From assembly GCA_947503885.1 (NCBI GenBank), contig CANNFD010000001.1:62001-126000 (forward strand): a stretch of DNA of 64,000 nt, in the 5' to 3' direction. The position numbers were made by a program, and so were the translations under genes. Position 1 is the first letter of the stretch, and the number at the start of each line of letters is the position of its first letter. This stretch comes from an uncultured Olleya sp. GTDB lineage: Bacteria > Bacteroidota > Bacteroidia > Flavobacteriales > Flavobacteriaceae. Below the pieces are notes generated by a model that saw only the letters and a list, made by a program, of their open reading frames with translations, made no database searches and was not told the DNA's origin. Shown here one piece after another: positions 3,850 to 45,980 of this stretch.

Positions 3850-4479
3850 TTATTTATCAATAACTTTAAGTACTTTAATTTCTTTTATCTTTTTAATTCG
3901 TTCTGTTTTTAATATAACATAATAGCTATTAGTTTCAGGGACTCTAACGGTGTAAATAGTATTTAATTTGTTGTCTAAATTAAACGCTTGCTCTTCAACT
4001 TCTGTAGGCATACTACCTTCTTTTAACCATCCAGAATCACCACCTCGTTTTGCATTTCTGTCCATGGAGTATCGTTTTGCTAAATCATCAAAGCTAATTC
4101 CTTCTTCATAAGACTTTAAGATTTCATTTTTATATTCTACAATTTTTGACACTTCTAATTTATTACCGTCAAAATAAATGTAACTAATACGGTAATGTCT
4201 TTCGTCTGTTTTATCTATTACTTTGTAATGTGTCGTATTAAATTCTGATTTAATAACTTCGGTATTTCCTACACTTGTACTAAATAATTTTGTTGCCAAT
4301 TTTGTTTTATGCTTAGCTTCATTAAATACTAAAATTTTATTTTTTCTTGATTTTTTAGTTTCTAAAAACTTTTCTGCTTGTTCAATTGTAACTATAGTAT
4401 CAAGTTCTTTTTCTAAACCTTTTTGAGCAAAAGAGAATAGAGTAATTAAGCAAAATGTAAGGTTAAGTAGGGTTTTCAT
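3850..4479 (-). CDS. Periplasmic PpiC-type (parvulin) peptidylprolyl isomerase
   Basis: A 209-residue protein with a signal peptide (MKTLLNLTFCLITLFSFA). Residues about 120-205 carry the parvulin core: a region starting near YEEGISFDDLAKRYSMDRN, the hallmark GGDSGWLKEGSMPTEVEEQAF, and a final strand ending in VILKTERI. Parvulins catalyse cis-trans isomerisation of Xaa-Pro bonds in periplasmic proteins, often outer-membrane clients. The first about 95 residues show no domain I recognise. It lies 77 bp downstream of tsaD on the same strand. The fold is complete, but the N-terminal extension is too short for a SurA-like chaperone domain. Confidence 0.85.
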   Translation of the reverse strand: MKTLLNLTFCLITLFSFAQKGLEKELDTIVTIEQAEKFLETKKSRKNKILVFNEAKHKTKLATKLFSTSVGNTEVIKSEFNTTHYKVIDKTDERHYRISYIYFDGNKLEVSKIVEYKNEILKSYEEGISFDDLAKRYSMDRNAKRGGDSGWLKEGSMPTEVEEQAFNLDNKLNTIYTVRVPETNSYYVILKTERIKKIKEIKVLKVIDK

Positions 4480-42864: not shown

Positions 42865-43575
42865 TTAACTTATTACATATTTAAATAGTAGTCCAACTAT
42901 TATTGCTATACCAAAGCTTAGTAGTGTCCCTATTAAAACATACTCGGTTAATTTACGGTTTTTAGATTTTGATAAATCGCCAAATCTAAACACTGATTTT
43001 GCTGTTATTAGTAATCCAATTGCACTCCATTGATCCAGTATTATAAACCCAAAGACAAATAAACGCTCTAGGATACCAATATATTTTCCTGCTTTTTCTA
43101 ACGAGTGGTCTTCGTTGTCTTCCTGGATTACCCATTGACTCATAATTAATCGCATAATTATTGCAGTTATTGAGGTTATTGCTATTAGTGATAGGGCTAA
43201 AGCTAGTACGATTTTTGATAATAGTATTGAAAAATCAATGGTGTACGAGCTGTAAAGCATTACTACTACTGCTATTACAGTAAGGTGTGCGATTTGGTCT
43301 AATATAAATAACCATCTTGGGTTTACTTTTTGGGTTAGATTAAGTTTTATTAAATCTATTATGTAATGTGACACTACAATTACGCTTATGCCTAGCCAAT
43401 ATTTGGTGTTAAATTGTAGTAATACTAATACAGCTATTGCGTGGATTAGCACATGAAAATATAGGTATTTGGATTTGTGTTTTTTAAGTTGTTTGTCTTT
43501 TACCCATTGGTCTGGTTGTAAGACAAAGTCTCCGATAGCATGCGCTAACACTAACTTAAGGACTAATAACATCAT
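42865..43575 (-). CDS. DUF3307 membrane protein (YdjM-like; partner of SatD)
   Basis: 236 residues with about seven membrane segments. Four His/Asp pairs with i/i+4 spacing are visible: H12/D16 (HAIGD), H41/H45, H70/D74 (HYIID), and D93/H97. All lie in or next to helices, the pattern of a membrane metal site, as in YdjM/DUF457-type putative metal hydrolases. The metal site is inferred from sequence alone. The ATG overlaps the SatD stop by 4 bp (ATGA), so the two are translationally coupled. An exact 14-mer repeat copy lies just after the stop (42841-42854). Confidence 0.85.
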   Translation of the reverse strand: MMLLVLKLVLAHAIGDFVLQPDQWVKDKQLKKHKSKYLYFHVLIHAIAVLVLLQFNTKYWLGISVIVVSHYIIDLIKLNLTQKVNPRWLFILDQIAHLTVIAVVVMLYSSYTIDFSILLSKIVLALALSLIAITSITAIIMRLIMSQWVIQEDNEDHSLEKAGKYIGILERLFVFGFIILDQWSAIGLLITAKSVFRFGDLSKSKNRKLTEYVLIGTLLSFGIAIIVGLLFKYVIS

Positions 43576-44171
43576 AATTTTATAATTTGTTGTTTGTAGT
43601 AGGTGTTAAGTTGCATGATCTCGTCATAGCCACCACGTGTTAAAGCTTCGCTAATATTACTTTGCGATTTACCTAATAGCTTTGCGATGTCTTTTTGGTT
43701 TTTTGTTGGATGCTCTATTACCCTTACTATAACTGTTGCAACTGTGCTGCTCCAATTATTTGCGGTTAATAAGGCTAAGTTTAGCATTATATTTAAAGGT
43801 TGGTCTAAATCCGGTATGTTTGTTTTTAGGGCTAGTGTGTCTTTTTTTAATCCTTCAAACGCTAATCCAGAATTGACGTAGGCAGGACCATTGGATTCGG
43901 TTATTTTTTGAGCCTTATAGGTTTGTTTACCCAAACCTATTGCTATTCTGACATCGTATTGCTTACTTGCTTTAATTGCTGCTTTTATGTGTATTGCTGC
44001 TAATAATGCTTTGTCTGGTGTGGTTACTAATTGAAAACTATCGCCTCTAAACACTTCCCAGTCTTTTGACTCTTGCCCATATTGGTTTAAGGTGTTTTTT
44101 AATATATCCAACCATTGTAAGACATTACCTTGTCTTGAATTAATGATGTCTCCTGTTAAAACTGCTACCAT
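43572..44171 (-). CDS. SatD family protein: nucleotide-cyclase-like fold plus winged-helix DNA-binding domain
   Basis: 199 residues from ATG at 44171 (MVAVLTGDIINSR). Residues 1-110 have VLTGDIINSR (Asp8), VFRGDSFQLV (Asp44), VRIAIGLG (74-81) and GPAYVNSGLAF (95-105). The order mirrors class III nucleotide cyclases, where two Asp bind metals, although the later Arg of that family is not evident. Residues about 135-199 contain a helix-turn-helix (NQKDIAKLLGKSQSNISEAL). SatD is named after an acid-tolerance locus of Streptococcus. Three operator-like repeats lie upstream, which suggests autoregulation. It heads a two-gene operon with a DUF3307 protein. Confidence 0.85.
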   Translation of the reverse strand: MVAVLTGDIINSRQGNVLQWLDILKNTLNQYGQESKDWEVFRGDSFQLVTTPDKALLAAIHIKAAIKASKQYDVRIAIGLGKQTYKAQKITESNGPAYVNSGLAFEGLKKDTLALKTNIPDLDQPLNIMLNLALLTANNWSSTVATVIVRVIEHPTKNQKDIAKLLGKSQSNISEALTRGGYDEIMQLNTYYKQQIIKL

Positions 44172-44193
44172 TTTATTATTTCTTTTTATAAAG

Positions 44194-44272
44194 ATATCGG
44201 TTTTTAAGGCGATATACAAATATATCTGCTTATAATAGGATAATTTGTAATATCTGCTTTAAAACGGATAAT
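44194..44272. promoter_or_regulatory. Three tandem 23-bp operator-like palindromes, 28-bp period, upstream of satD
   Basis: Copies start at 44194, 44222 and 44250, each opening ATATC and closing GATA(A/T)(T/A), with 5-bp spacers. The first has ATATCG and CGATAT as symmetric ends; all share G, TT and AA at matching inner positions. The set lies 23-101 bp before the SatD ATG and brackets a -7 match, so a repressor bound here would cover the promoter. The SatD helix-turn-helix is the obvious candidate ligand. Confidence 0.75.
44217..44224 (-). promoter_or_regulatory. Possible -7 element for the SatD operon
   Basis: Minus-strand TATATTTG, exact to TAnnTTTG, between operator copies 1 and 2, about 46 bp before the ATG. 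Confidence 0.5.
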
Positions 44273-44297
44273 AATAGTAACTGCAAAAAAAACACTA

Positions 44298-45791
44298 TTA
44301 CATATAGCTAGTAACCGTCATAACTACTAACGTTAATACTATTAGCATAACAAATAAAGGCATAACAAATTTTAGCCATTTGTTAAACCCAACTTTAACA
44401 ACAGCTAAAGAGGCTAAAATTAAACCTGTTGGGTTAATAAAATAGAATAACCCCATACCAAATTGGTAGGCATTAACAACGATTTCTCTACCAATACCTA
44501 CGCTATCTGCTAATGGAGACATGATAGGCATTGTTAATACTGCCATACCAGAACTACTAGGTATAAAAAAGGAAAGTCCCGCGTAAATGGCTGTCATAGC
44601 ACTTGCAAAAACACCTTTATTCATCCCTTCTGTCATTGAGCTTGCGTAATGTAAAAGTGTATCGCTAATTAACCCGTCTGCCATTATTACCGTTACACCA
44701 CGTGCAATACCAATGATTAAGGCAACACCCAATAAATCACCAGCACCTTTTACAAAAATGTCTATAAAATTGGCTTCTTTAATTTTTGCTACAATACCAA
44801 TTAATATGGCGCCCACTAAAAAGGTAGTAGTCATTTCTATAAACCACCATTCTAAAGCCACAACACCATAAATCATGATTATAAAACACAATGCAAATAG
44901 GATTAATGACAATCTAAGTCTACTTGTAAACTTGATTACCTCTGTATTAGACTGTGTAAACAATGCAGCAATCTGTTGTTGTTGATCGTAAATAATAGAT
45001 TTGGTTGGGTCTTTTTGGACACGTTTACCATAACGGATAATGTAGATTAACGAGATAATTAAACACGCTGCTAACATAAAAATACGGATCCAAAGTCCTG
45101 TAGTCCAACTTATACCAGCAGCATCACTTGCTATAATAGTGCTAAATGGGTTTATGGTAGAACACATAGTACCAATGGAGCTTCCTAAAAAGATACAGGC
45201 TATTCCAACCATTGCATCATATTTTGCAGCTAAAAACACTGGTATTAGAATAGGGAAGAAGGCAATAGTCTCTTCAGCAAAACCAAACGTAGTTCCTCCT
45301 GCTGCAACTAACACAGTAACAAGGATAATTAAGATAAATTCGCGACCTTTTAATGCATTGGCTAACCAACCAATACCAGCATCAAAAGCACCTGTACTAT
45401 TAATAATACCTATTAAACCACCAATAATTAACACTAGAAAAATAATGTCGGCTGCTTCTATAATCCCTTTAATTGGCGACTTAACAAAGTCGTAAAAATT
45501 TTGTGGTTTAGCTTCTAATTGCTGATAGGTATTAGGGATATTAATTGGCTTGTAAATATCGCCATTAGTAAACTTGTCTAACGGTATTTTTATATTTAAA
45601 GTTTCCAACGTTTGCTGTGTTGCTGGTAGGGTAACAGTGTTATCTATACCAACTCTTGTAAATTGGTTATCGTCTTTGTTATAGCCTAAGGTTTCGTATT
45701 TACCAGCTGGAACCAACCAAGTTAAAAGCGTTACTAATCCTGCTATAATTAGTAAAATGGTTTGTGCGGAAGGAAATTTTATGTTTTTCAT
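44298..45791 (-). CDS. YfcC/DcuC-type anion permease
   Basis: 497 residues, about 12 membrane helices, from ATG at 45791 (MKNIKFPSAQTILLIIAG). A family-typical LTWLVPAGKYET follows the first helix, then periplasmic text to about residue 100. Re-entrant-loop-type segments include GGTTFGFAEETIAFFPILIPVF, GSSIGTMCSTINPFSTIIAS and FIPSSSGMAVLTMPIMSPLAD. Relatives include C4-dicarboxylate and basic-amino-acid transporters; substrate not predictable. No strong terminator separates it from satD, so read-through into that operon is possible. Confidence 0.9.
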   Translation of the reverse strand: MKNIKFPSAQTILLIIAGLVTLLTWLVPAGKYETLGYNKDDNQFTRVGIDNTVTLPATQQTLETLNIKIPLDKFTNGDIYKPINIPNTYQQLEAKPQNFYDFVKSPIKGIIEAADIIFLVLIIGGLIGIINSTGAFDAGIGWLANALKGREFILIILVTVLVAAGGTTFGFAEETIAFFPILIPVFLAAKYDAMVGIACIFLGSSIGTMCSTINPFSTIIASDAAGISWTTGLWIRIFMLAACLIISLIYIIRYGKRVQKDPTKSIIYDQQQQIAALFTQSNTEVIKFTSRLRLSLILFALCFIIMIYGVVALEWWFIEMTTTFLVGAILIGIVAKIKEANFIDIFVKGAGDLLGVALIIGIARGVTVIMADGLISDTLLHYASSMTEGMNKGVFASAMTAIYAGLSFFIPSSSGMAVLTMPIMSPLADSVGIGREIVVNAYQFGMGLFYFINPTGLILASLAVVKVGFNKWLKFVMPLFVMLIVLTLVVMTVTSYM

Positions 45792-45980
45792 TAGTGTTAT
45801 TTTTGTAATTGTATTTACACCAGTCAAGCTGAATTTAATAAGGGTTTATTCTACCTTTACTTTAAAAACCATGCTTTGGATAGCTACTTAAAATTTTTAA
45901 ATATTGGTTTATAATTATTAAAGATAGTATTATTTTTAACGTTCTGTATTAGAATTAATGGCAGCAAAAATAAACAAGAA

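Follow-up and report, generated by a model that had tools for sequence, protein, structure and literature searches.

The window, a stretch of 64,000 nucleotides from an uncultured Olleya sp., carries two overlapping genes on its minus strand. satD (43572..44171) encodes a 199-residue protein of the Pfam SatD family (PF16264), which is predicted to combine a cyclase/Cas10-palm-like N-terminal domain with a C-terminal helix-turn-helix (HTH). A gene for a DUF3307 (PF11750) membrane protein (42865..43575) overlaps the end of satD by 4 bp, and by position the two genes form one operon. The upstream neighbor of satD (44298-45827, same strand) encodes a DcuC-type carrier (E 2e-114), and in several relatives from the genus DNA similarity stops upstream of satD. 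The DNA upstream of satD (22% G+C over 44173-44300) holds three imperfect dyads with a start-to-start distance of exactly 28 bp: copy 1, nearest satD, at 44195..44214; copy 2 at 44223..44242; and the distal copy 3 at 44251..44270, none of them assigned to a strand. The initial annotation had described 23-bp palindromic operators beginning at 44194, 44222 and 44250 and separated by 5 bp. The positions and the exact 28-bp phasing were found again, so the repeat stands, but the unit is better given as a 20-bp symmetric core (TATC-N12-GATA) with 8-bp spacers, and the palindromes are dyads of imperfect symmetry, with 7, 7 and 8 of 10 pairs complementary in copies 1, 2 and 3. A candidate -7 element, TATATTTG, lies on the minus strand at 44217..44224, between copies 1 and 2, and starts 2 bp inside copy 2; it fits TAnnTTTG, which we take to be the Bacteroidetes-type -7 consensus. 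This confirms the -7 match seen earlier between these copies, now placed at 44224-44217 on the minus strand, which means that the box points at satD (ATG at 44171-44169). By eye, there is no TTG at the -33 distance from the box.

The closest matches to the operator patterns in the Olleya genome fall at the satD locus. A two-operator pattern (TATC-N12-GATA-N8-TATC-N12-GATA, at most one mismatch allowed) matched the 3.04-Mb genome only at two overlapping places at satD, both without mismatch, and the reversed pattern, used as a control, gave 0 matches in the same 3.04 Mb. The single-operator pattern, which was drawn from these sites, has three zero-mismatch matches on the plus strand genome-wide, all at the satD array; with up to two mismatches it shows no genome-wide excess (49/58 versus 60/43 for the control). 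When an array score (described below) was computed over 510 overlapping 250-bp segments of the 64 kb, the best value, 25.4, came from all three copies, the second, 23.3, from copies 1 and 2, and the third, 21.8, from a segment at 4126. Olleya aquimaris was identified as a relative with 77% identity. Among 10 genomes of the genus, two-operator matches with at most one mismatch occurred only upstream of satD, in 7 of the 7 satD-bearing genomes. The three genomes in which SatD was not found, one of them 75% complete, had no two-operator match, and the reversed-pattern control matched in one of the 10 genomes.

In wider searches, SatD matches were obtained in 28 of the 60 relatives, in 236 of 397 genomes from the family and in 100 of 395 from the phylum. 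The loci sampled were those given by the searches plus 98 family regions and 40 phylum regions, among the matches listed; only part of the SatD places was fetched, so high-scoring homologues are over-represented in the sample. A SatD frame was recovered from 219 loci, corresponding to 215 distinct proteins (210 once further duplicates were removed; locus L029 duplicates L007 and was excluded from counts), and the 201 sequences with a profile score of at least 90 form the protein alignment. Self-identity of the upstream DNA was highest at a lag of 28 (0.461), with every other lag from 15 to 44 at or below 0.342. The best dyad pair at lags 20-40 had a lag of 28 in 169.0 of the 201 SatD loci and 29 in 19.8 (ties split). 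The array score uses similarity between copies and also rewards TA...TA ends, which the dyad-pair lag test does not. Of 210 regions upstream of satD, 193 scored at least 20 and 172 at least 24; the corresponding numbers for 683 control windows, taken from loci longer than 3 kb, were 7 and 0. In these controls lag 28 was best in 25.2, near the chance value of 1 in 21. After the 10 of 201 arrays scoring below 20 were dropped, the 191 that were kept contained two to seven sites each (three in 118), spaced by 28 bp in 400 cases, 29 bp in 50 and 27 bp in three. A chain detector that used palindromes alone lacked power and was set aside: its score exceeded all 100 shuffles at 102 of 210 loci, and at the Olleya locus it gave p 0.03 with spurious extra sites. 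The conserved 28-bp arrays that the initial annotation suggested looking for upstream of satD orthologues are therefore present, and, to judge by these comparisons, the 28-bp array is a trait of the SatD family whose spelling varies by lineage.

The -7 element recurs in these regions as well. The 191 loci hold 185 TAnnTTTG matches, versus 42 expected by shuffling, and 118 of the 185 start at one of two offsets within a site (97 at 18 and 21 at 16), which means that the box repeatedly grows from the operator into the spacer. The match begins in a site or in the 8 bp after it at 96 of the 191 loci, and 72 of the 191 have no match in 250 bp. For 120 matches the position relative to the array could be assigned by spacer: in 50 the box comes right after the last site, so that the array precedes it, and in 70, as at the Olleya locus, at least one site lies downstream of the box. 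The overlap of array and box suggests autorepression, which is favored by the position of the Olleya box between copies 1 and 2; the 50 boxes that come after the last site are compatible with activation in some lineages.

SatD passes the curated cut-off of PF16264 by hmmscan (34.4 bits versus 29, residues 5-178), although a six-frame search of its own genome with the Pfam SatD family returned no match. The AF2 model of SatD (pLDDT 81) has five PDB matches at E <= 0.001: four Cas10-type subunits and the adenylyl cyclase MA1120, with TM-scores by query length of 0.38-0.43 and an rmsd of 4.7 for MA1120 and 12.9-15.3 for Cas10. A bacterial cUMP synthase, 7r65, is among the weaker matches (E 3.2e-3), and a sequence search of the PDB with the SatD alignment gave weak matches only (best E 0.082). 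On the model, the N-terminal domain is assigned to the nucleotidyl cyclase/GGDEF/Cas10 palm superfamily fold. D8 and D44, presumably the equivalents of the palm metal-binding aspartates (a motif reading), are found in 199 and 200 of the 201 SatD sequences, respectively, and their retention together with the cyclase/Cas10-like fold makes a nucleotide ligand or product of SatD plausible. SatD was credited with a helix-turn-helix in the initial annotation, and its C-terminus is indeed modeled as a three-helix HTH, with a mean pLDDT of 95 for blocks 161-180; curated HTH models match SatD below their cut-offs only.

A DUF3307 homologue lies directly downstream of satD on the same strand in all 76 of 76 loci longer than 3 kb. 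DUF3307 had no match among PADLOC models at E up to 0.1, and SatD had weak matches in the HTH region only (best E 0.002), which do not place it in a known defence family. The structure model of DUF3307 was poor (pLDDT 51) and was left out of the fold search. DUF3307 also matches the phage protein family phrog_2470 (E 1.8e-17), which is labeled membrane protein and grouped under morons and host takeover.

Operator sites located from DNA alone were compared with the SatD alignment. The outer TAT of the half-site is near-constant and positions 4-7 form classes (TCTG, TCGG, TCGT, TTAG, TAAG, TTCC, TTAC, TCAC and others). Weighted mutual information over 199 columns (effective number 31.5) gave residue 175 the top rank at half-site positions 4, 5 and 6; residue 171 was second at position 4 and residue 172 second at position 5. 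All three residues belong to the third HTH helix of the AF2 model (residues 170-179). For half-site positions 7-10, the top columns fall outside this recognition helix. A paired test on 94 disjoint nearest-neighbor SatD pairs points to the same residues: column 172 changed in 18 pairs, with a half-site change in 18 of 18 (p 2.2e-8, rank 1 of 199), and column 175 changed in 26, with a half-site change in 23 of 26 (p 4.6e-8, rank 2 of 199), while column 171 was weak (p 0.015). Two columns of the N-terminal domain, outside the HTH, are likewise associated with site change (88, 5.6e-7; 119, 6.4e-6), and in 14 of the 41 site changes residues 171, 172 and 175 all stayed the same. Particular letters go with particular residues: E or D at 175 with C at half-site position 4 (46/48 versus 22/143 otherwise), Q175 with AG at positions 5-6 (60/68 versus 4/123 otherwise) and K175 with CC at positions 5-6 (24/33 versus 1/158 otherwise).

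Transfer of these rules between protein backbones was less successful. The residue-175 rule drawn from the 176 G/A backbone and tried on the R176 backbone gave positions 4-5 correctly in 15 of 92 cases, against a permuted mean of 17.5; the reverse transfer, from R176 to 176 G/A, was modest (13 of 65 versus a permuted 6.2, maximum 11). With 172 and 175 together, cross-backbone transfer gave 13/16 and 10/12 versus permuted values of 11.4 and 9.2. Tree-based independent pairs on well-supported branches numbered 3-4 only and were not significant among the tests listed, a comparison that is underpowered. Because the half-site letters covary with SatD residues 172 and 175, SatD very probably binds the array. 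The original proposal that SatD binds these sites and regulates itself thus draws support, at the level of sequence, from the conserved array, the covariation of half-site and helix, and the co-occurrence of array and satD in the genus.

The SatD-DUF3307 pair also occurs on three viral-collection contigs and on plasmids. Nine plasmid records were matched and eight examined: an annotated DUF3307 adjoins satD in seven of the eight (Vibrio, Pseudomonas, two Salinivibrio, Enterobacter, Segatella and Sphingomonas), and the eighth, from Pseudoalteromonas, is a record without annotation beside satD. In nine of these 11 distant loci (three viral-collection, eight plasmid), the DNA upstream of satD gave 28 or 29 as its best lag, and 28- or 29-bp arrays were found in the plasmid relatives of Vibrio, Pseudoalteromonas, Salinivibrio and Enterobacter. 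No array was found upstream of satD in the Pseudomonas plasmid relative (L246), and the best lag there on the Sphingomonas plasmid is neither 28 nor 29. Among 142 control windows from the same distant loci, 11 had a best lag of 28 or 29 and three scored at least 22, two of which proved on inspection to be further dyad arrays (Sphingomonas and Salinivibrio); the score for distant loci tries seven site lengths, and a few of the arrays (L245, L250) are only partly convincing. The further Sphingomonas array is a 28-bp dyad pair of the GTCAACC..GGTTGAC type between satD and DUF3307 (L251:2168-2215), and the Salinivibrio one is a second 28-bp dyad pair just past DUF3307 and before an S9 peptidase gene (L247:2877-2922). 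Upstream of its satD, one viral-collection contig (L242:2170-2333) has six sites that start with GGCCGG exactly 29 bp apart, and in five of them TGGCCA follows. On a Sphingomonas insulae plasmid (L252; NZ_CP048421.1, 67000-79000), satD-DUF3307 is arranged tail to tail with three genes, which encode an adenylate/guanylate cyclase, a Cys-rich protein and a Pycsar effector, and a TIR-domain gene lies nearby. A tblastn search of phage records gave no match to SatD or DUF3307, and blastn with the Enterobacter satD-DUF3307 pair found none in E. coli genomes.

The array is likely to be the operator of the satD-DUF3307 operon, bound by SatD, which would repress its own operon. Computed support for this reading comes from the site, its pitch, its conservation, the helix covariation, the fold and the gene pair; contacts between dimers, repression rather than activation, and a nucleotide ligand are what we infer. 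SatD dimers would bind each 20-bp dyad through the HTH, with the inner half-site bases read by recognition-helix residues 172 and 175, and perhaps 171, and the outer TAT/ATA near-invariant. The pitch would be set by contact between neighboring SatD dimers: 28 bp corresponds to 2.67 turns (at 10.5 bp per turn), which would place successive dimers about 120 degrees apart around the DNA and therefore not on one face, and a fixed pitch between neighbors off a shared face suggests that they touch directly. A filled array would then cover the -7 box and silence both satD and the membrane-protein gene that follows. The lattice is probably loosened by a nucleotide that the cyclase-like domain at the N-terminus either senses or produces.

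Repression is one of two actions that SatD might have at these sites: bound to the array, it could instead activate its own operon, with RNA polymerase brought in by the sites that precede the -7 box. The -33 element missing by eye would fit a promoter that needs help, and in 50 of the 120 placed matches of relatives the array lies upstream of the box. However, at the Olleya locus and in the other 70 at least one site is downstream of the box, and box starts recur at one offset within a site (97 at 18), so that a filled array would overlap it; activation is thus unlikely. Use of the array by a regulator other than SatD is much less likely still. Binding by SatD is predicted and the prediction of half-sites across backbones is weak, but the inner half-site letters change with SatD residues 172 and 175 in both the phylogeny-weighted and the paired tests, and the three of the 10 genus genomes that yielded no SatD have no two-operator match.

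It is harder to credit that the dyads are RNA hairpins in the leader, or a DNA structure, rather than protein sites. If the -7 box has been assigned correctly, the transcript would include part of copy 1, but copies 2 and 3 lie upstream of the box or overlap it, and the dyads are A/T-rich and imperfect, with arms that covary with a protein helix. The low G+C content of the region would also invite chance periodicity in A/T-rich DNA, an explanation that is refuted by the dyad-pair lag test and by the control windows, none of which attains the score of at least 24 seen in most satD upstream regions. Autorepression by SatD through the array therefore stays the preferred reading.

Regulation of this kind has parallels. 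Phage repressors and toxin-antitoxin operons are autorepressed through cooperative operator arrays, and satD resembles them in having dyads at its own promoter that overlap a promoter element and in its two-gene operon. It differs in that the pitch of 28 or 29 bp is kept in two phyla while the half-site spelling diverges, and in that the regulator, SatD, has a cyclase-like fold in its model. Pycsar systems consist of a pyrimidine cyclase and a membrane effector; SatD-DUF3307 likewise pairs a putative cyclase-fold protein with a membrane-protein gene, the weaker fold matches include a cUMP synthase, and one Sphingomonas plasmid neighborhood puts the pair beside cyclase and Pycsar-effector genes. 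SatD is set apart from Pycsar by its C-terminal HTH and its operator array, and DUF3307 has no PADLOC match at E up to 0.1. The SatD of the Streptococcus mutans sat operon (cluster SatCDE, Ffh, YlxM) shares PF16264 with Olleya SatD. The sat genes have been linked to acid tolerance, translocation or acid resistance, and the available excerpts of these accounts contain no DNA binding, operator array or cyclase fold (PMC11323703, PMC10326533, PMC12077213). No description of a SatD operator array was found in literature on SatD (PF16264), the sat operon, DUF3307, cyclase-HTH or Pycsar autoregulation, or 28-bp palindromic operators, among the matches listed. Regulation of such a kind is known, while the SatD family, with its fold and fixed pitch, was not found described in the literature searched.

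A broader reading can be offered tentatively, as possible and rather doubtful: SatD-DUF3307 may be an undescribed, horizontally moving signaling or defence/addiction module, in which a repressor with a cyclase fold polymerizes on a DNA lattice of fixed pitch and monitors a nucleotide, dissolution of the lattice sets a membrane effector free, and the code between helix and operator insulates each lineage's module. In S. pyogenes, satD is accessory (178 of 249 genomes) yet essential in the strains tested, according to the excerpts available (PMC11323703), and loss of a repressor of a harmful partner could explain this combination. A gene pair annotated as hypothetical or DUF in plasmid records gains a concrete regulatory anatomy, and the retention of pitch while the letters change makes protein-protein contact along the DNA directly testable. 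The 191 natural arrays, with their matching recognition helices, provide one HTH family with a specificity code that can be read in part, and the finding extends from one promoter to a family-wide operator lattice.
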